Below the pieces are notes generated by a model, which saw only the letters and a list, made by a program, of their open reading frames with translations, made no database searches and was not told where the DNA came from. This document shows, one piece after another, positions 19,091 through 28,562 of a stretch of DNA of 50,459 nt. Position numbers and translations under genes: made by a program. The stretch is from Terriglobia bacterium. GTDB taxonomy: Bacteria > Acidobacteriota > Terriglobia > Bryobacterales > Bryobacteraceae. The number at the start of each line of letters is the position of its first letter. The stretch's first letter is position 1. The stretch is taken from NCBI GenBank assembly GCA_010084195.1, contig RGPS01000015.1, positions 1-50,459 of the forward strand, read 5' to 3'.

Positions 19091-19224
19091 AGGGACTACC
19101 TGAGGCTCATTGTTACTGGGGATGGCATGCGCACGGAGAAGAGGTCCGAGGACGCCGGCAGAGATGATGAGACGGTCTTTTTACAAAGCCATGAACACAA
19201 GGCGTGGCCTGGCATAATGATCTG

Positions 19225-20313
19225 GTGACCCGACGCCTCTCTAATTTTTTCATCCTTGGTGGTTCCTTGATCTTCTGTGGTCTGGCTGCCGCTCAAACGC
19301 GCAAGACGGAAAACGTCATCTTTGTGATGACAGACGGCCTGCGCTGGCAGGATGTATTTCGGGGCGCCGATCCTGCGCTGCTCAATAAAGAAAGCGGTGT
19401 GCCGAATCCTGATGCCGCGAAGAAGGAGTACTGGCGAGATACGCCGGAGGCACGCCGGGCGGCGCTCATGCCTTTTCTGTGGGGCACGATGGCGAAGCAG
19501 GGGCAGATCTATGGCAATCGCGACCAGGGGTCGGAAGCATATGTCACGAACGGGTTTAATTTCTCTTACCCGGGCTACAACGAGACTTTGACGGGAGCTC
19601 CGGACCCGCGAGTGGATTCGAATGACAAGATTCCCAATCGAAATGTGACCGTGCTGGAATGGCTGAACAGGAAGCCTGCTTTTAAGGGCAAGGTGGCGGC
19701 GTTCGGGGCGTGGGATGTGATCTCCGCGATTGCCAACGGTGAGCGCGGCGGGTTTCCGGCGAATGCCGGGTATGACGCATTTCAGATGACCCCGATGACT
19801 CCGCAACTCGCGCTGATCAACAAATTGAAGGTAGAGACGAAGGTGTGGGACGGAGAGGCCTTCGACTCATTCCCGTTCTTCACCGCGATGGAGTATCTGA
19901 AGGCGAAGAAGCCCCGCGTCCTGTATATCTCCCTGGGTGAGACGGATGAGTGGGCGCACGACGGAAAGTACGAGTTGTATCTGAAGTCGGCGCGGCGGGT
20001 GGATGACTATTTGAAGATCCTTTGGGAGACCGTACAGTCGATGCCTGGTTACAAGGACCACACCACGCTGATTTTCACGCCGGACCATGGGCGTGGCGAA
20101 GCTCCAACAGGGTGGAAGGATCACGGGCAGAAGGTCCCGGATTCGAAGTATATCTGGATGGCGTTTCTGGGACCTGATACTCCGCCGTTGGGTGAGCGGA
20201 AGAATGTTCCGGCTGTGACGCAGAGTCAGGTGGCGGCGACGCTCGCGGCGTTTCTGGGTGAGGACTATGCGGTACCGGGGGCGGGGAAGGCGATCGCAGA
20301 CGTTCGGAAGTAG
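19225..20313 (+). CDS. Exported alkaline-phosphatase-superfamily hydrolase
   Basis: The GTG at 19225 gives a clean signal peptide (LSNFFILGGSLIFCGLAAAQ) and 362 residues; a GTG at 19204 would add seven unneeded residues. The fold is the phosphodiesterase/sulfatase superfamily. VIFVMTDGLRWQDVFRG carries the first metal aspartate, FSYPGYNETLTG the nucleophile region, GETDEWAHDGKY a D/H pair and FTPDHGRG the last ligands. There is no CxPSR, so it is not a formylglycine sulfatase. Phosphate mono- or diester hydrolysis in the periplasm is likely. Its stop abuts the stop of the convergent response regulator. Confidence 0.8.
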   Translation: MTRRLSNFFILGGSLIFCGLAAAQTRKTENVIFVMTDGLRWQDVFRGADPALLNKESGVPNPDAAKKEYWRDTPEARRAALMPFLWGTMAKQGQIYGNRDQGSEAYVTNGFNFSYPGYNETLTGAPDPRVDSNDKIPNRNVTVLEWLNRKPAFKGKVAAFGAWDVISAIANGERGGFPANAGYDAFQMTPMTPQLALINKLKVETKVWDGEAFDSFPFFTAMEYLKAKKPRVLYISLGETDEWAHDGKYELYLKSARRVDDYLKILWETVQSMPGYKDHTTLIFTPDHGRGEAPTGWKDHGQKVPDSKYIWMAFLGPDTPPLGERKNVPAVTQSQVAATLAAFLGEDYAVPGAGKAIADVRK

Positions 20314-21072
20314 TCAGAAGCCAAGGCGGTCTTTGAGACTGCGGACATGGTCGCGAGAGATGGGTAGTTCCGTTTTTGCGGTGTCGTTGAGTCGAGCCAC
20401 CATGCGGCCTCCAAACCAGGAACAGATCTCAGCGACGGCGCTGAGGTTCACCATGTAACTGCGGTGGATTCTATGGAACTGAGCCGGGTCTAGTTTGGCC
20501 TCCAGTTGCACGATGGAATCGTCCACGACGTGTGCTTTGTCGGCAGTGGCAGCATAGGTGAGTTTCCCTTCGGCGTAGAAATGGGTGACCTTTTCGAGAT
20601 CAATCAACTGCACACGATCCCCGAGCTTTGAGGGCAGGCGGCGGGCATACTGCCGGGTGTTCTGCGCGAGGGCCCCGGATAGCTTTTCGAGCATGGCGCG
20701 ATAGTCGGCCGGGGCGGGCGAGGCCTTCTGTTCAAGGCGGGCAACGGCGCGCGCCAGAGCTTCCGGGGTAATTGGCTTCAACAGGTAGTCTGTGCCGTTG
20801 GCTTCGAAGGCTTTCACGGCATACCTGTCAAAGGCCGTGGTGAAGACGATGGCGGGCGATACGGTGAGGCGCTGAAGCAGATCAAAGCCAGTGAGACCGG
20901 GCATCTCGATATCGAGGAAAAGCGCGTCGAACGAAGCAGTGTTGAGGCGTTCGAGAGCCTCGGTCGGATCGGTTGCGTGGCCCACGACCTGAACCCGTCC
21001 GGTTTCTTCAAGCATGCGGATAAGACGCCGCAGGGCGAGGGGTTCGTCGTCGAGGGCCCAGGCGCGAATCAT
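20314..21072 (-). CDS. LytTR-family response regulator
   Basis: The start at 21072 (ATGA overlap with the kinase stop) gives MIRAWALDDEP and 252 residues; the longer frame adds an implausible N-terminus. The receiver domain (1-120) has acidic D8-D9, the phosphoacceptor D54 in ALFLDIEMPG, T79 and K99 in TDYLLKP. The LytTR DNA-binding domain fills about 145-250 with FYAEGKLTYA and FHRIHRSYMVNLSAV. It should bind direct-repeat sites as a dimer and act on membrane or envelope genes. The partner is the LytS-type kinase encoded just upstream. Confidence 0.92.
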   Translation of the reverse strand: MIRAWALDDEPLALRRLIRMLEETGRVQVVGHATDPTEALERLNTASFDALFLDIEMPGLTGFDLLQRLTVSPAIVFTTAFDRYAVKAFEANGTDYLLKPITPEALARAVARLEQKASPAPADYRAMLEKLSGALAQNTRQYARRLPSKLGDRVQLIDLEKVTHFYAEGKLTYAATADKAHVVDDSIVQLEAKLDPAQFHRIHRSYMVNLSAVAEICSWFGGRMVARLNDTAKTELPISRDHVRSLKDRLGF

Positions 21073-22139
21073 GCGGGCACCGACAGGGAGACCACAGTGA
21101 ACCCGTCCTGAGTTCGCCATTCGAGAGACGCGGAGCTTCCGAAGAGGCTTTCGAGGCGGCGGCTCAGTAAGTCCAGGCCATGGCCAGGTTTGGATGTCGC
21201 GGGATCTGTGAAGCCGGGGCCATTGTCGCGCACCTGAACCATCAGCCGGCCATTCGAGAGGCTGGCTTCGACCATGATCTCCGCGCCCTCGCGCTGGACA
21301 CCGACGGCATATTTGACGCTGTTTTCGACGAGGGTCTGGATGGAGAGTGGCGGGACCATGACGGGTTGGGCTTCGGGACTTACTTCGATGTGGAAACTCA
21401 GGCGGGTGCCGAAGCGAACGCGCTCGATCTGGAGATACTCTTCCACTATGCGAAGCTCCTCGGAGAGGGTGATTAGGCCGGTGAGTTCGCTGTCGAGACT
21501 AAAGCGCAGAAGTTCGGCGAGGCGCTCGATCATTCGTTCTGCCTCTGCGGGATCTTCCCGAACCAGGGCCGAGATGGAATTGAGGGTGTTAAACAGAAAG
21601 TGAGGCCGGACCCGTGATTCCAGTGACGCGTAGCGGGCTTCGGCTGCCATTTTCCGCTGGCGCTCTTCAGCCAGGCGCTGTTGAGCCAGTTCCTCATTTG
21701 CGGCGTCGAGGCGCGCCCGGAGCGTTTCGATGATGAAAAGAATGGCACCCACTCCGAGCGAGATAAGTAAGCAGATGCGGACTGAGAAGAAGAGGATGGC
21801 CCCAAGAGGTCTTCTGCCGAACGCACCGAAGGGCCAGATGAGGGTATTCGCGACAGCACAGCCCAGAACCGCGAAAAGCGCAAACGTACTGAGCAGGGCG
21901 ACGAAGCGGAGGATGGCCGGCCGGCCCTGTGTTTCTCTCGCAAGTGATGGAATCACCAGCCAGCACGGCAGACCAATGCAGTTCGAATACGTGCAGCCCA
22001 TAGCGGCCCAGCCCAGAAACTCGGGGAGCGTCATAGAGCGGGCAGAGGCCGCAGCAAAGAGAGCGGGGACTGAACCGGTTACCAGGTTCAGTCCCACGAT
22101 CTTCAGAAACTCGCGCCAGGTGGGTCGCACTGTATTCAT
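21069..22139 (-). CDS. LytS-type sensor histidine kinase
   Basis: The start at 22139, one base after the stop of the preceding gene, gives 356 residues. Four hydrophobic segments lie in residues 15-140 (for example FVALLSTFALFAVLGCAVA and ILFFSVRICLLISLGVGAI), followed by a coiled-coil linker. The His_kinase domain has H180 in RVRPHFLFNTLNSISALV, an N box LVENSVKYAV and a G box DNGPGF. There is no periplasmic sensor domain, so the signal is probably perceived in the membrane or through the mono-haem partner upstream. Translational coupling joins all three genes. Confidence 0.9.
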   Translation of the reverse strand: MNTVRPTWREFLKIVGLNLVTGSVPALFAAASARSMTLPEFLGWAAMGCTYSNCIGLPCWLVIPSLARETQGRPAILRFVALLSTFALFAVLGCAVANTLIWPFGAFGRRPLGAILFFSVRICLLISLGVGAILFIIETLRARLDAANEELAQQRLAEERQRKMAAEARYASLESRVRPHFLFNTLNSISALVREDPAEAERMIERLAELLRFSLDSELTGLITLSEELRIVEEYLQIERVRFGTRLSFHIEVSPEAQPVMVPPLSIQTLVENSVKYAVGVQREGAEIMVEASLSNGRLMVQVRDNGPGFTDPATSKPGHGLDLLSRRLESLFGSSASLEWRTQDGFTVVSLSVPA

Positions 22140-22140
22140 G

Positions 22141-22821
22141 CTACTTGCTGGTGTGGCATCCGACACAGGCGGCGCCCCGGATCTTGTAGCTGGTGCCACT
22201 CAGGTATGCGTTGGCCTGTTCCAGATGACCGGAGGCGGGACCCAGGTCGGCCAGCAGGTTGAAGTAGTCCTTCGCCTTTTCCGGCTTGCCGGTGCGAGCG
22301 TAGCCATCGGCGATGCCGAAGAGGAGTTCACTGCGAGGATGCATGCCGAGTTTGTCGAAATACGCTTTTTGGATTTCGAAGACGCGTTCGTAATCGGCAA
22401 TGGCTTTGATGAGGAGGGGGCGCCCCTGCTCGGGCGGGGCTTCGCGGGAGGCGGCAAACCAAACGGAGGCGCGGGGGATGAGGACGCCGACGTTGTCCGG
22501 TGCGAGAGTACCTGCGCGGTCCATTTCTTCATTGCCTTTGATCCATAGCTCAGTTCCGTTGGCGATGTCACCGGTGCGAAACTTCTGGCCCGAGAGGAAC
22601 ATCAGGCCGGAACCGTGCCAGGCGAGAGCCTCGGCAAGGTCGGGAGAGTTTTGGGTGATGGCGTCGCCAATTACCTCCGCGGTCACCTTCATGCCGCGTT
22701 CGAGGGCGGCCTGGTTTCCGAAGAAGCCGGAGAAGAAGTCGTTGCGGACCTTGTCATCAAAGCGTGCGGCGCTGAGGGCGGTGACGGTGAAAAGAACTGC
22801 GATGAGTTGCTTGCGGAACAT
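22141..22821 (-). CDS. Exported helical-repeat protein with C-terminal haem motif
   Basis: A 226-residue protein with a signal peptide (MFRKQLIAVLFTVTALSAA). Helical TPR-like repeats follow, including LLFGIADGYARTGKPEKAKDYFNLLADL. The C-terminus has a single CVGCH haem c motif (C219, C222, H223), three residues from the end. A good ribosome site, AGGAGGG, lies eight bases before the ATG. It is the first gene of a transcript with the LytS kinase and LytTR regulator, so it may be a redox or ligand-binding partner of the kinase. That link is inferred only from position. Confidence 0.75.
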   Translation of the reverse strand: MFRKQLIAVLFTVTALSAARFDDKVRNDFFSGFFGNQAALERGMKVTAEVIGDAITQNSPDLAEALAWHGSGLMFLSGQKFRTGDIANGTELWIKGNEEMDRAGTLAPDNVGVLIPRASVWFAASREAPPEQGRPLLIKAIADYERVFEIQKAYFDKLGMHPRSELLFGIADGYARTGKPEKAKDYFNLLADLGPASGHLEQANAYLSGTSYKIRGAACVGCHTSK

Positions 22822-22949
22822 GTGTTGTTCCCTCCTGAGTTGAGATTAAGGCTGGTGGGGAGGGAAGGTCGCGCGGTTTCTGACGAGCTGCGGAATGAGC
22901 CGACGAAGCGCGGGAATCCGGCGACGAAGGGATGTTGCGGGGCAGTGCC

Positions 22950-23291
22950 TTAAATGAAGAGGCCTGAGGGGACCGAGAAGAACTCGGCGAGGCGTCGGGC
23001 GTGCTGCTCGCTAATTTCACGCTTGCCGGTCAGAACTTCTGAGGCAACACTGCTGGAGCCGAAAACGGGAATCAGGTCGCGTTGGCGGAGGCCGCGATCT
23101 TCCATGGGGGACTTGAGGGCATCAAGGGGAGATGCCGATCCCAGGTCGTATCGGGACTCGAAACGGTCGATGAGGACAGTCAGGAGTTCGGCGAGGCTGC
23201 TTTCTTCCGACGTCATCGCCGGAAGGGAATCGAGCCGCTCCAGTTCCGCGATGAACCGCTCGTTCTCGGCATCAGTTTCGATCACAGCCAT
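22950..23291 (-). CDS. higA: HigA-type antitoxin, HTH protein
   Basis: A 113-residue Xre-like protein. An acidic helical N-terminus (ELLTVLIDRFESRY) precedes the helix-turn-helix DRGLRQRDLIPVFGSSSVASEVLTG, and the end AEFFSVPSGLFI is typical of HigA antitoxins that pair with pfam09907 toxins. The ATG at 23291 lies nine bases after AAGGGG and is preferred over the TTG at 23300. It overlaps the end of the toxin relic by ten bases, as in working higBA pairs where the toxin comes first. HigA normally neutralises the ribosome-dependent RNase HigB and represses the operon. Here the toxin is destroyed, so HigA is probably an orphan. Confidence 0.85.
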   Translation of the reverse strand: MAVIETDAENERFIAELERLDSLPAMTSEESSLAELLTVLIDRFESRYDLGSASPLDALKSPMEDRGLRQRDLIPVFGSSSVASEVLTGKREISEQHARRLAEFFSVPSGLFI

Positions 23292-23430
23292 TTCATCCAA
23301 CCCCTTCTGTCGTACTCGGCGTGCGTGAGAAATGCTTTGATGTAAATGCGTTTGGCCAGGAATTCAACCCTCGCGCGGTTGAGGGGAAGCCCCGTCGGAT
23401 CTCGTCCAGGGATTGCCAGCTGCGATGGTG
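23282..23430 (-). pseudogene. higB: Remnant of HigB mRNA-interferase toxin
   Basis: Two HigB-like pieces lie in different frames. HHRSWQSLDEIRRGF (23386-23430) matches the middle of the toxin. RIYIKAFLTHAEYDRRGW, ending at a TGA at 23282, matches its conserved C-terminus. About 20 residues between them are missing and the frame shifts by one. The N-terminal third, normally RVIxxxxLxxFWxxHP-like, is also absent, cut off by the end of the amidohydrolase fusion gene at 23481. It cannot encode a functional toxin. Confidence 0.75.
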
Positions 23431-23480: not shown

Positions 23481-25679
23481 CTACTCCTGCTTCAGCAACT
23501 CGGCTCGGTTCACGCGTTCTCCTTTGAACATGACAAACGAAATAGCTTCGGCCGCTTTGATGTCCTGTAGCGGATTGCCGTCCACGACCAGCATTGTCGC
23601 GTCCTTCCCCTTCTCGATGGAGCCAAAGCGCGCGTCAGCCCGCAGCGATTTCGCTGCGTTTAGCGTTGCCGCCTGCAGGGCTACGGTCACGGGGATCCCG
23701 GCTTCTACCCAGAGCTGGAGTTCGTACTGGATGGTGGGGCCGTGGAAGACGAGCATGTTGCCCGCATCACTGCCGGTGACGAGCGGGACCCCGGCCTTCC
23801 ATGCCCGAAACAGGTTGTCCTTTGTGATCGCCATGTCGATGCGGTAGTCGCCGATGGCCTTTCGCATTTTGGCTACGTCGGGGGATTCGATCATGCGGCG
23901 GGTAGATGCCAGAAGCTTTGGCGGGGCGACCTGCTGGACGAGCGAACGCTGCAGCAGATCGAGCTTACCGGCGGCGAATTGCGGGAAGGCTGCCACGACG
24001 TAAAGGGTCGGGTTATACGAGACACCGGCCTTCGCCATGGCTTCAAAAACGGCATCCGGGATGCGCTGCCGAAAAGAACCGTGTTCGATAGAGCTGGCAC
24101 CGGCGTGGAGGGCGTCTTCGATATCCCGCACATCGCCGGTATGGACGGCGAACGGCAGGTGGTTGCGGATGGCCGCAGAGCCGATGGCGTCGAGGATGGC
24201 GGGGTCCATGCGGTTGTAGAGCGAGCCACCGACACCGGCTTCCATGATGCCCTTGATTGCATCAACACCCGAGAGTTTCAGGCCCTCGACGGCTTTGGTC
24301 GCTTCGTCGGCAGTCTTCGGCATCCGCAGGAACTGCGCTTCGGCCTGGAGGCGCATGTTCTCCGGCATGGCGCGGAAATACTCGGTACCGTGGCCGCCTG
24401 GCGTGGTGAACAGGGGGCCGGCGAGGAAGAATTCGGCTCCCAGCTTTTCGCCGCTGTTCACCGTGTCGCGAATTTTCAGGCTGGTATCAAGCGAATCGCC
24501 CACACTGCGGACGGCGGTGACACCGCTGTAGAGATAGGCCCCGAGCTCGCGCTGCATGGCTTTCACAACGTCGTAATCTTTCCAGTCATCCATGGTGCCG
24601 CCAGGGACGCCGAGGTGGACATGGGTGTCAATCAGGCCGGGCAGGATGGTCTTGCCGGCGGCTTCAGTAACGGCTGCGTTGATGTCTTTCGGATCGGGGA
24701 TATTGTTTTCGTAAACTTCAGCGATCTTGCCGTTCTTGACGAGAACCGCGCCATTTTCGATGACCCTGCCGTCACCTATGAAGATGCGGGCATTGCGGAT
24801 GAGGGTGGTGCGGGACCGGTCGAGCTGGCGTTCCAGAATCTTCGTCTTCTTGACGTTATCTTTGGCGTGTGTCTGCCAGGTTCCCAGGAGGACGAAGGGC
24901 AGCAGGACGGCGACCACCCAGAGTTTGGAAGCGGGGCGGACTTTTTCTTCTTTTTCCCAGCGGAAGAGTTTGACGCAGAGGAAGAGCCCGGTGGCGGCAG
25001 TGAGGATCAGAGCCCCAACAGCCTGCCAGTTTTGGGCGAGGGTTTCCTGCCGGAGGATGATGCCCTGCAGGCCGGTAACGAGCCAGGTAGCTGGGATGAA
25101 CTGGGTGACCGTCATCAGCCAGTCCGGGAACATGGAGGTAGGGAACGTGGTGCCACTGAGGAAGAGCATCGCCATGTAGACAATCTGGACGAGAATGCCA
25201 CTTTCCTGCATGGAGTTGACCACAGACGCGATGATCAGGCCGAGCGAACGGATGGCGACGACGCCGAGCATAATGAACACCAGAATGGTGGTGAGGTTCT
25301 CGGGCCACGCCATACCGTAGCGGAAGTGGGAAATGCCGAGCATCAAAATGATGTAGGGCATATAGACGACCAGGCCCGTGACCGTGGAGGCGACGAGCAG
25401 GGGGAGCGGAGAAATGGGCGCTACTTTGTAACGCCGGAGGATGTTGTTTTCGCGCTCCTGCGCGGCTCTCAAACCGGCTCCGAACAGGCCATTGCCAAGG
25501 ATGCCGATGACCGTGACCATGGTGATGACCTGCAGAATAGCTCCACCCTGCTCGGCGTGAAAGGACTGCGCGAACACGAAGAAAAACACGAGGGGCATGA
25601 GGTAGTTGAAAAAGATGACTACCTTCTGGCGGAAGGCCAGCCGGATATCCATGCGGATGAGCGTGAGGTAAGTTTTCAT
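23481..25679 (-). CDS. ABC-2 permease fused to an imidazolonepropionase-like amidohydrolase
   Basis: One 732-residue frame. Residues 1-240 are an ABC-2 permease with six membrane segments, including FFNYLMPLVFFFVFAQSF and MLFLSGTTFPTSMFPDWL. A basic linker (RWEKEEKVRPASK) leads to a seventh segment, LWVVAVLLPFVLLGTW (253-268). Residues about 290-732 are a complete metal-dependent amidohydrolase: H353 and H355 in DTHVHLG, candidate carboxylated K476 in DAIKGIME, H513 in VHTGD, H533 in IEHGS and D638 in TGSDAGN. Related free enzymes are exported prolidase/imidazolonepropionase-like proteins. The extra segment should place the enzyme in the periplasm. The ABC ATPase gene is six bases upstream. 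Hydrolysis coupled to export is inferred; the substrate is unknown. Confidence 0.88.
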   Translation of the reverse strand: MKTYLTLIRMDIRLAFRQKVVIFFNYLMPLVFFFVFAQSFHAEQGGAILQVITMVTVIGILGNGLFGAGLRAAQERENNILRRYKVAPISPLPLLVASTVTGLVVYMPYIILMLGISHFRYGMAWPENLTTILVFIMLGVVAIRSLGLIIASVVNSMQESGILVQIVYMAMLFLSGTTFPTSMFPDWLMTVTQFIPATWLVTGLQGIILRQETLAQNWQAVGALILTAATGLFLCVKLFRWEKEEKVRPASKLWVVAVLLPFVLLGTWQTHAKDNVKKTKILERQLDRSRTTLIRNARIFIGDGRVIENGAVLVKNGKIAEVYENNIPDPKDINAAVTEAAGKTILPGLIDTHVHLGVPGGTMDDWKDYDVVKAMQRELGAYLYSGVTAVRSVGDSLDTSLKIRDTVNSGEKLGAEFFLAGPLFTTPGGHGTEYFRAMPENMRLQAEAQFLRMPKTADEATKAVEGLKLSGVDAIKGIMEAGVGGSLYNRMDPAILDAIGSAAIRNHLPFAVHTGDVRDIEDALHAGASSIEHGSFRQRIPDAVFEAMAKAGVSYNPTLYVVAAFPQFAAGKLDLLQRSLVQQVAPPKLLASTRRMIESPDVAKMRKAIGDYRIDMAITKDNLFRAWKAGVPLVTGSDAGNMLVFHGPTIQYELQLWVEAGIPVTVALQAATLNAAKSLRADARFGSIEKGKDATMLVVDGNPLQDIKAAEAISFVMFKGERVNRAELLKQE

Positions 25680-25685
25680 GCGCGA

Positions 25686-26609
25686 TTAATCCCTGAGTTT
25701 CTTGCCGGTGAGTTCAATGAAAACGTCTTCGAGAGTGGGGCGGCTGAGCTGCACATCTTCAAGGCCGAGAGCTTGGGCGTCCACCCACTTGATGATCTCA
25801 ACCAGCGTGCGGGCCGGCATGGCGGAGGCCACCGTGAGGCGCTTGTTATCTTCTGTGAGTTTGGAACTGATCGCTTCCGGCCATTCGGGCATAGCTGCCG
25901 GGTCCATCGCCCGGTTACAGGCGATCGAGATAGTGGACTTGCCCGCGCTCTTTGCCTTAAGCTCCGTCGGCGTCCCGATGGCAATCACCTTACCGGCATC
26001 GACGATAGCGACTCGGTCGCAGAGGCGTTCGGCCTCCTCAATGTAGTGGGTGGTCATCAGAATGGTGCGTTTTTCGGAACGGAGCTCTGTAACCAGCGCG
26101 TGGATTTCCAGGCGCACCTGCGGGTCGAGGCCGGTGGTGGGTTCGTCAAGGAAGAGCAGGGCGGGGTCGTTGATCAGGCCAAGCGCGATGGCGAGGCGTT
26201 GCTTCTGGCCACCGGAGAGCGTGGAATAGTTGGCATTGCGCTTATCCTCAAGTTGCAGGCGCTTCAGCAGCATGTTGGGGTCCGCCATGCGGCTGTAGAG
26301 GGCACCGAAGAGTTCCAGAGCCTCGTGGACCTTGATCTTATCGGGCAGGTTGGTGGACTGGAGGCAGACGCCGATACGGTCCTTGAGTTGCTTCTTCTGT
26401 TTGTCGGGATCATAGCCGAGGACGAGAACGTCGCCGGAGGTTCGCTGCCGAATACCTTCCAGGATCTCGACGGTGGTGGTTTTACCGGCACCGTTGGGGC
26501 CGAGGAGGCCGAAGACTTCGCCAGTCTCCACTTCGAAGTCGATGCCACGGACGGCCTCAAAGTCACCGTAAGATTTATGCAGGCTGCGGACGGAGATTGC
26601 AAGGCTCAT
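25686..26609 (-). CDS. ABC exporter ATPase, DrrA/CcmA type
   Basis: A 307-residue nucleotide-binding protein that powers the permease encoded six bases downstream. Walker A is GPNGAGKTT (37-45), the signature LSGGQKQRLA (131-140), Walker B LLFLDEPTTGLD (151-162), and the switch histidine is in MTTHYIEEAE. Residues 230-307 form the C-terminal domain typical of drug or polysaccharide exporters. The gene is first in its transcript and diverges from the sigma-receptor chimera with 123 bases between. Those bases are A/T-richer and should hold both promoters. Confidence 0.94.
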   Translation of the reverse strand: MSLAISVRSLHKSYGDFEAVRGIDFEVETGEVFGLLGPNGAGKTTTVEILEGIRQRTSGDVLVLGYDPDKQKKQLKDRIGVCLQSTNLPDKIKVHEALELFGALYSRMADPNMLLKRLQLEDKRNANYSTLSGGQKQRLAIALGLINDPALLFLDEPTTGLDPQVRLEIHALVTELRSEKRTILMTTHYIEEAERLCDRVAIVDAGKVIAIGTPTELKAKSAGKSTISIACNRAMDPAAMPEWPEAISSKLTEDNKRLTVASAMPARTLVEIIKWVDAQALGLEDVQLSRPTLEDVFIELTGKKLRD

Positions 26610-26732: not shown

Positions 26733-28562
26733 TTGAAGCAAACTGACCACGAACTGATGGCGGCAGTCTCGCGCGGCGACCTGAACGGTATGAGCGAACT
26801 GTACGAGCGACGGCACCGGAGTCTGTTCCGGTTCTTCTTCCGGCTGACGGGCAAGCAGGCCGTGTCGGAGGATCTGGTGCATGACGTGTTTGTGCGGATG
26901 CTCCGGTACCGGAATACCTATGCTTCGGGCGATACGTTCGAGGCGTGGATGTACCGGATTGCGCGGAATGCCTTTGCAGATCAGGCGAAGAAGCATCGTT
27001 TGGAGAGTCCGTTCTATGGCCTGTACTTCCACGACGACGTGAAGGTCACGCAGCGGCTGACGCTCAATATTGGTCTGCGTTATGAGTATGAATCGCCCAT
27101 GCTCGACGGGCAAAACCGCCTTTCCCGTTATTTGGATCTCAACTCTGCGATCCCCGAATTCCAGGGTGCGGGTGCGCCCGTGATTCCGGCTGCCGCCGCT
27201 GCATTCCGGACCGGCAACCCGAGCTACAACGGAGCCTGGGTCTTCACGGATGAGAAGAACCGGGGCTCGTGGAATGCACAGAAATTCCTGCTCATGCCCC
27301 GTTTCGGGCTTGCCTACCGGGTGAATGACAAGACCTCATTCCGGGTCGGCTATGCCCGGTATCTCGTTCCTTCGACTCTCACTGACGGGCTCGATGTCCT
27401 GGGCAGCGTTTTCTACCCGGGCTTCGAAGCCACCAGCCGCGGCTTACCGCTGCTGACCGGCGTACCTCAATCGAGGCTCAGCAATCCTTTCCCGGGTGGG
27501 CTGGTGCCCGTCAGCGGCAAGAAATTCGGTCGTTATACCGACTTGGGTGGCTCGCCGATCTTCTACAATCAGGATTTCAAAGTTGGCAACAATGACCGCA
27601 TCAACTTCAGCCTGCAGCGGGCGCTCCCCGGCAAGATTGTGTTGGACGCGACCTACTTCATTAACTTCGGGGCCAATGCCCCCGTCACCCGTAATGTAAA
27701 CCAGGTCGATCCCCGCATTGGCTACGCGAGGGGCGCGGCGATCTCCGCCAATGTCGCCAATCCGTTCTTCAACAAACTTGCGGAAGACAAGATGCCGGGC
27801 CAGCTGCGAACACAGGCCAACGTGGCAATTTCCCAGTTGCTTCGCCAATATCCCCAATACGGTGATATTCAGCAGCGCCTGACACCCCTCGGTGCCAACC
27901 GCTACCAGGCGCTCCAGATTCAGTTGCAGCGTCCCTTCGTCAATGGCCTCAACATGGTGATGGGTTACAACTACAACCGCGAAATGAACAAAGAGTATTA
28001 CGACGAGCAGGACAATTTCACCGACACCCTGACCTACTTCCGCGCCGTCAATCCGCGCCACCGGATGACAGGAGCAGCCATCTACCAGTTGCCCATCGGC
28101 AACGGGCGCAGGTTCCTGTCGAAGGGCAATAAGTTTGTGGACGGGGTATTCGGGGGCTGGTCGCTGAGCGGTCTGGGTTCCTTCAATACCGGTCAGTACC
28201 TCCGGTTTGGCGGCTTCCTTGTGGATGGCGATCCCTCCGTTGCCAACCCGACGAAGACGCGTGCCTTTGACACTACGAAGTTCCAGCGCCTTCCTGCCTT
28301 TACACGCCGGACCAATCCTCTGCAGTATGAAGGAATCAAAGGCATGCGCTTTAAAAATATTGATTTGACTCTCGCCAAGACGTTCCCGGTTACCGAGAAA
28401 ATCAAGTTTGAGCTGCGCATGGAAAGTTACAACGCCACCAATTCCTTTAACGGCGATCTGCCTTCCACCGCGTTCGGAACATCGGCGTTCGGTACCATCA
28501 CGGCACAGCAGCCTGGCTACCTCGGTCGCCAGTTCCAGTACAGTGGCCGCTTTACTTGGTAG
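26733..28562 (+). CDS. Chimeric ORF: ECF sigma region 2 joined to a TonB-receptor barrel
   Basis: Residues 1-91 of this 609-residue frame are an ECF sigma factor. They include region 2 (LFRFFFRLTG, SEDLVHDVFVRMLRYR, FEAWMYRIARNAFADQAKKH) and stop before region 4. From residue 92, FYGLYFHDDVKVTQRLTLNIG starts the back half of an Oar-like TonB-dependent receptor and runs to a normal barrel end (FQYSGRFTW). The same place in the intact receptor at 36698-40252 is near its residue 660. The receptor part therefore lacks its signal peptide, regulatory domain, plug and first strands. The join (about 26995-27015) is in frame. A deletion or an assembly join is the simplest cause. The protein can hardly be a working receptor. 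Start is a TTG. Confidence 0.85.
   Translation: MKQTDHELMAAVSRGDLNGMSELYERRHRSLFRFFFRLTGKQAVSEDLVHDVFVRMLRYRNTYASGDTFEAWMYRIARNAFADQAKKHRLESPFYGLYFHDDVKVTQRLTLNIGLRYEYESPMLDGQNRLSRYLDLNSAIPEFQGAGAPVIPAAAAAFRTGNPSYNGAWVFTDEKNRGSWNAQKFLLMPRFGLAYRVNDKTSFRVGYARYLVPSTLTDGLDVLGSVFYPGFEATSRGLPLLTGVPQSRLSNPFPGGLVPVSGKKFGRYTDLGGSPIFYNQDFKVGNNDRINFSLQRALPGKIVLDATYFINFGANAPVTRNVNQVDPRIGYARGAAISANVANPFFNKLAEDKMPGQLRTQANVAISQLLRQYPQYGDIQQRLTPLGANRYQALQIQLQRPFVNGLNMVMGYNYNREMNKEYYDEQDNFTDTLTYFRAVNPRHRMTGAAIYQLPIGNGRRFLSKGNKFVDGVFGGWSLSGLGSFNTGQYLRFGGFLVDGDPSVANPTKTRAFDTTKFQRLPAFTRRTNPLQYEGIKGMRFKNIDLTLAKTFPVTEKIKFELRMESYNATNSFNGDLPSTAFGTSAFGTITAQQPGYLGRQFQYSGRFTW

Follow-up and report, generated by a model that had tools for sequence, protein, structure and literature searches.

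An ABC-2 permease fused to an amidohydrolase in a family of Acidobacteriota, with repeated loss of the active site

A single open reading frame encodes an ABC-2 permease and a complete amidohydrolase in the window, the 50,459-nt stretch of Terriglobia bacterium contig RGPS01000015.1 (Bryobacteraceae) analyzed here. The fusion is genuine and not an assembly fault, because the permease occurs in 41 of 61 genomes in the family (f1), 39 of which also have the amidohydrolase or its remnants on the permease chain. Two further permease lineages of the phylum have the same fusion. In f1 the active site has been lost repeatedly while the domain was retained, an outcome that the first-pass annotation of this DNA had not foreseen. 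The features of the locus are as follows.

25686..26609, minus strand: ABC ATPase, 307 aa (ABC_tran, PF00005, 106.1 bits, cut-off 25)
23481..25679, minus strand: fused ABC-2 permease/amidohydrolase, 732 aa, a single ORF (from the ORF, Pfam and homologues)
24951..25679, minus strand: ABC-2 permease part, residues 1-243, with six hydrophobic segments and an FRWE end (PF01061, hydropathy)
24876..24926, minus strand: seventh hydrophobic segment, residues 252-268 (hydropathy; homologous in stand-alone permeases)
24816..24875, minus strand: basic linker, residues 269-288 (hydropathy and charge profile)
23484..24815, minus strand: amidohydrolase domain, residues 289-732 (PF01979; best solved relative 2qs8)
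24615..24623, minus strand: HxH metal ligands H353 and H355 (ligand alignment)
24252..24254, minus strand: bridging lysine K476 (ligand alignment)
24141..24143, minus strand: metal ligand H513 (ligand alignment)
24081..24083, minus strand: metal ligand H533 (ligand alignment)
23766..23768, minus strand: catalytic aspartate D638 (ligand alignment)

The layout agrees with the first-pass annotation, which had described one uninterrupted frame, six metal ligands (H353, H355, K476, H513, H533 and D638) and an ATPase six bases upstream. Both Pfam domains lie on the one 732-aa chain, all six ligands are at the claimed positions, and 6 nt separate the ATPase (26609-25686) from the 732-codon fused frame (25679-23481) on the minus strand, which the first-pass annotation had left unstated. 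PF01061 (ABC2_membrane; residues 5-208, 73.7 bits, cut-off 26.9) and PF00005 are both above their cut-offs, so that a permease domain with a partner ATPase identifies an ABC-2 exporter. PF01979 (Amidohydro_1; residues 344-723, 91.9 bits, cut-off 25) together with the HxH, Lys, His, His and Asp ligands identifies the enzyme, by sequence, as a subtype I amidohydrolase, the metal centre of which is described in PMC11342369.

The best solved relative of the hydrolase is 2qs8 (E 7.3e-33), with 3mtw and 4c5y lower among 44 PDB matches. These relatives include carboxypeptidases and dipeptidases: 2QS8 is an Xaa-hydrophobic dipeptidase and 3MTW an L-Arg/Lys carboxypeptidase (PMC11342369), and 4c5y is ochratoxinase. 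The PDB sequence search found no solved structural relative of the permease part, and an AlphaFold2 model built from two sequences (pLDDT 32, pTM 0.22) was set aside. Among the NCBIfam matches listed (the best 25 of 56) the fused chain reaches no named equivalog at its curated cut-off, scoring 44.8 bits against 223.05 for DrrB (TIGR01247), 32.9 against 450 for the SagH permease (NF038293) and 156.6 against 500 for Xaa-Pro dipeptidase (NF051886). The substrate therefore cannot be read off from these models. The best NCBIfam model for the ATPase, drrA, also remains below its cut-off (278.5 against 312.45 bits).

The f1 genomes were surveyed within 101 related genomes searched for the whole chain. 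The permease is present in 18 of the 19 genomes of the window's genus, and some of the 20 f1 genomes that lack it are incomplete assemblies. The 41 holders comprise 24 with all six ligands, 3 with one or two replaced, 1 with a broken frame, 11 that have lost at least four and 2 without a hydrolase. Full-length homologues in the same frame are 90% identical in G015, 88% in G003 and 64–77% in other members of the genus. Such same-frame homologues in many genomes exclude a stop codon lost around residue 250, which the first-pass annotation had named as a possible refutation. Although the source assembly consists of 628 contigs, the recurrence of the frame in many independent genomes, one public contig included, eliminates an assembly or annotation artefact as an explanation. 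One chain end (G021) is garbled at a contig end, and the G001 copy (L048:6049-8261) has a frame broken inside the hydrolase, through sequencing error or as a pseudogene.

At all 35 loci with an anchored permease, a related ATPase ORF immediately precedes the permease on the same strand; at the G055 locus this ATPase is in a different frame from the permease (offset -35). Between the window and its nearest relative (L002), dN/dS is ~0.07 for the hydrolase and 0.035 for the permease, with dS near saturation. A search of viral contigs returned no relative, and one scan of a contig collection returned a single close relative. In a plasmid collection, 71 records had weak permease matches, all below 60% identity, and one such region was inspected.

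The surroundings of the two genes yielded separate observations. Directly downstream of the fused gene (20314-23300, minus strand) are a LytTR response regulator, a sensor kinase, a TPR-like secreted protein and an HTH ORF; in G015 the gene corresponding to 19204-20313 is close to the fused gene in place of this set. We considered the TPR protein, histidine kinase and response regulator as part of the system and rejected them, since the module occurs elsewhere in f1 with no such permease at 10 of 10 loci. Homologues of these genes flank seven-helix exporters of another class in G155 and G598. Upstream of the ATPase, the frame at 26733-28562 (plus strand) opens with ~90 residues of an ECF-type sigma factor, which share 82% identity with an intact 194-aa frame of G015 (L052:11335-11916). 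It then runs on into an apparent TonB-receptor end, which reflects a local rearrangement or misassembly.

The first-pass annotation had proposed a search for other chains with both domains, and these were found across f1 and in genomes of f68, f76 and f88. The searches covered 395 genomes phylum-wide and 162 and 148 genomes class-wide (Acidobacteriota), and added four fused genomes outside f1: G429 and G499 (f68), G498 (f88) and G281 (f76). In an alignment of 14 selected intact fusions, none of the six ligands varies. A single clade of f1 and f68 permeases is rejected (p-AU 0.0003), as is a single clade of all three fused permease lineages (p-AU 0.0001). These sequence-based tests are compatible with separate gains or with old gains followed by losses, and do not tell the two apart. 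The G429 chain (L102:4752-7469) is 905 aa long and consists of a permease, an amidohydrolase and a C-terminal CIA30 domain. In five seven-helix relatives (L084, L104, L105, L106 and L111) a proline-rich stretch leads into another C-terminal domain, which has no Pfam name in the three that were scanned.

The seventh hydrophobic segment that had been described before the enzyme is present, at residues 252-268 based on hydropathy, and the family average has seven hydropathy peaks, the last at residue 259. Its proposed origin as the former signal peptide of the hydrolase is not supported, in view of the permeases that lack a hydrolase. Ordinary six-helix relatives end at FRWE, right after the sixth helix. 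Many other permeases from several families of the phylum continue for about 10 residues past FRWE into a seventh helix and then end without a hydrolase. Residues P261, F262 and G266 are invariant in all 20 aligned permeases, 7 of which have no hydrolase, sister lineages of the fusions included. In the permease tree (n = 73) both the f1 fused clade and the f68 fusions have seven-helix permeases without a hydrolase as sisters (L043-L047 for f1; L108, L116 and L173 for f68). Because these hydrolase-free sisters carry a homologous helix, the seventh helix most likely predates the fusion and did not originate as a signal peptide. There is a residual chance that the hydrolase-free seven-helix permeases are themselves relics of older fusions. 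Inside the fused clade, L041, L042 and probably L107 look like real losses of the hydrolase. L107 (6400-7257), an f1-clade permease without a hydrolase, is from G334, a genome of another family of the class, possibly by transfer and then loss.

A second start inside the frame, which would yield a free secreted enzyme, was considered and rejected for the window. Many relatives have ATG before helix 7, whereas the window has GTC, and many other relatives have ATC, CTC or GTC at that position.

The enzyme probably faces the periplasm, as the first-pass annotation had proposed. Among the unfused relatives of the hydrolase, 23 of 24 have a signal-like N-terminus as called by a simple hydropathy rule, and the 24th is just under the cut. 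Positive-inside counts are consistent with a cytoplasmic N-terminus of the permease. Because both flanks of helix 7 are basic (on family average 4.9 K+R before and 5.9 after), the outside placement rests mainly on the unfused relatives; residues 270-292 have a mean of 5.9 K+R against 2.6 D+E. These flanks, and the shortness of the helix (17 residues, hydropathy peak 1.63), would also fit a helix 7 that does not span the membrane, with a cytoplasmic enzyme that treats the cargo before export. We regard this arrangement as very unlikely, given the predicted export of the unfused relatives, the proline-rich tails that follow the helix in other seven-helix permeases, and the CIA30 domain, which is C-terminal to the hydrolase in G429 and is found in signal-bearing proteins of G611 and G596.

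The f1 members with at least four of the six ligands lost (11 of 41) come from scattered lineages, and their frames are still open. All keep the N- and C-terminal parts of the hydrolase domain, and 8 of the 11 also lack ~70–130 residues of the barrel. One or two ligands are replaced in G007, G026 and G060, the domain is absent from L041 and L042, and the window copy is intact. On the permease tree the degenerate labels require 9 changes, at least 4 of them forced by well-supported branches; on the weak tree of the retained hydrolase parts they require 7, at least 2 of them forced. Rough dN/dS values over the retained parts, with dS saturated, are 0.3–0.5 for degenerate pairs and ~0.06–0.23 for intact pairs. 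Because of this difference, we conclude from the sequence comparison that the domain stays in frame under weaker constraint once its chemistry has been lost.

Two secreted amidohydrolases, encoded next to a related exporter in a thiazole/oxazole (TOMM) peptide cluster, are the closest unfused enzymes. In both G595 and G596, two signal-bearing amidohydrolases directly precede a PqqD-like/HExxH membrane protein, an ATPase and a six-helix permease:

L182:1759-14045 and L183 (G595/G596): TOMM-type cluster, with two secreted amidohydrolases, an HExxH membrane protein and an ABC-2 exporter

The gene run of G595 includes a ThiF-like leader-binding protein and a SagD-type YcaO, both above NCBIfam cut-offs, and G596 has a SagB dehydrogenase above its cut-off. 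The HExxH membrane protein scores 79 bits with a daptide model, below the cut-off of 300. A 70-aa ORF in G595 with a Cys/Ser/Thr-rich end looks, on our reading, like a precursor. In the hydrolase tree (n = 45), a branch supported at 94/79, which is not strong, places the G595/G596 enzymes on the same side as the f1 and f68 fusions, and the f76/f88 pair is apart from that group. Elsewhere, G611 has a secreted hydrolase with CIA30 4 nt after the permease, and a hydrolase neighbour was found at only 3 of the 23 unfused permease loci examined.

Within f1 the loci have no conserved neighbour gene except the ATPase; a DJ-1/PfpI ORF is upstream at 10 of 36 loci. Among the 11 largest clusters of short ORFs in f1, no conserved precursor was found beyond shadows of neighbour genes. 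No YcaO was matched in the genome of the window, and each of the seven exporter-holding f1 genomes with a YcaO has it on a different contig from the exporter. A link to RiPPs inside f1 is thus unsupported, and a YcaO beside the exporter was found only in the unfused relative G595. Because the nearest unfused amidohydrolases adjoin a related exporter in a TOMM cluster, this indirect support favours an exported peptide as the cargo.

The mechanism that we favour, with slightly less than even confidence, is a periplasmic, exporter-tethered, carboxypeptidase-like amidohydrolase whose substrate would be a peptide or N-acyl amino acid leaving the cell. Two ATPases and two fused chains would form the ABC-2 exporter, by analogy with the family, and the seventh helix would bring the permease C-terminus to the periplasm. 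There, the enzyme, which its family and ligands place among the subtype-I binuclear-metal amidohydrolases of the COG1228 carboxypeptidase/prolidase group, would hydrolyse an amide bond in the exported small peptide or N-acyl amino acid during or after its emergence, and so mature or inactivate this cargo. Trees and neighbours support an origin in which a secreted amidohydrolase linked to an exporter became fused to a permease with the seventh helix already in place. Once cutting was no longer needed, the active site may have decayed and the domain remained. The retention of the fusion across the family and in two further lineages, the invariant ligands of the 14 intact fusions, and dN/dS well below 1 in intact hydrolases speak for this mechanism. 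The dead active site in 11 of 41 members and the missing hydrolase in 2 speak against it, and the basic linker weakens the topology argument.

The dead copies lend themselves to a reading in which the domain is structural or regulatory, as a periplasmic cap, a dimer contact or a substrate-binding part, and catalysis is secondary. Open frames, the retention of both domain ends, the scatter of degenerate labels on both trees and dN/dS of ~0.3–0.5 between degenerate members all point this way. We nevertheless consider it rather unlikely, as 24 of the 41 members, the window among them, have all six ligands, degenerate domains show a higher dN/dS than intact ones (with dS saturated), and L041 and L042 manage without the domain. 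Self-protection, in which an amide or peptide antibiotic is pumped out and then destroyed by the enzyme in the periplasm, would suit the nearness of ATPase and permease to daunorubicin-resistance models, albeit below cut-offs, and the hydrolysis of toxins by related PDB enzymes such as ochratoxinase. No biosynthetic or resistance genes are beside the window gene, however, and the gene is kept through much of the family and is not patchy like acquired resistance; we judge self-protection unlikely.

Processing of exported cargo by a tethered periplasmic enzyme remains the reading we prefer. On a broader view, to be taken as tentative, the seventh helix made ABC-2 permeases a platform for periplasmic modules, and in one family the enzyme repeatedly became a pseudoenzyme. 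The modules meant are amidohydrolases, in three separate permease lineages, and one proline-linked domain, all in Acidobacteriota. If the proposed mechanism is true, a hydrolase anchored to the outside of an exporter would link export to processing within a single chain. With unfused, fused, catalytically dead and lost forms all occurring in nature, one can ask directly what a tethered enzyme does for a pump, and the TOMM link provides the first concrete cargo class to test.

We found no description of an ABC-2 permease/amidohydrolase fusion in the non-subscription literature covered. Covalent exporter-hydrolase pairs are already known in other forms, namely the peptidase-containing ABC transporters (PCATs) and the ABC permease/CPBP proteins. 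PCATs are type I exporters that carry their C39 peptidase at the N-terminus, on the cytoplasmic side. The window chain resembles them in having a peptide-cutting domain on an exporter chain, but here the domain is a metalloenzyme, C-terminal, probably periplasmic and on an ABC-2 permease, so that it would be a mirror image of PCATs; no C39 domain is among the Pfam matches of the chain. The ABC permease/CPBP protein (NF041647) likewise combines an ABC-2 permease and a hydrolase on one chain, but its CPBP part is an intramembrane protease of unrelated fold and is absent from the window chain, which has no Pfam match to CPBP and no match to NF041647 among its best 25 of 56 NCBIfam matches.

Compared with the COG1228-type amidohydrolases (2qs8, Sgx9355b; 3mtw, Cc2672; 4c5y, ochratoxinase), the enzyme is alike in the whole domain, the six ligands and the GGH motif. 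Those enzymes are free proteins, exported in the unfused relatives examined as predicted from signal-like N-termini, whereas the window's domain is part of an ABC permease. DrrAB- and SagGHI-like ABC-2 exporters share the adjacent ATPase and permease and give weak drrB and SagH model matches, but the window chain misses all the model cut-offs and differs by its seventh helix and C-terminal enzyme. The TOMM cluster of G595 and G596 (L182 and L183) has a related exporter and amidohydrolases from the same side of the tree; there, in contrast to the window, the enzymes and a six-helix permease are encoded by separate genes and accompanied by peptide-modifying genes, which the window lacks.
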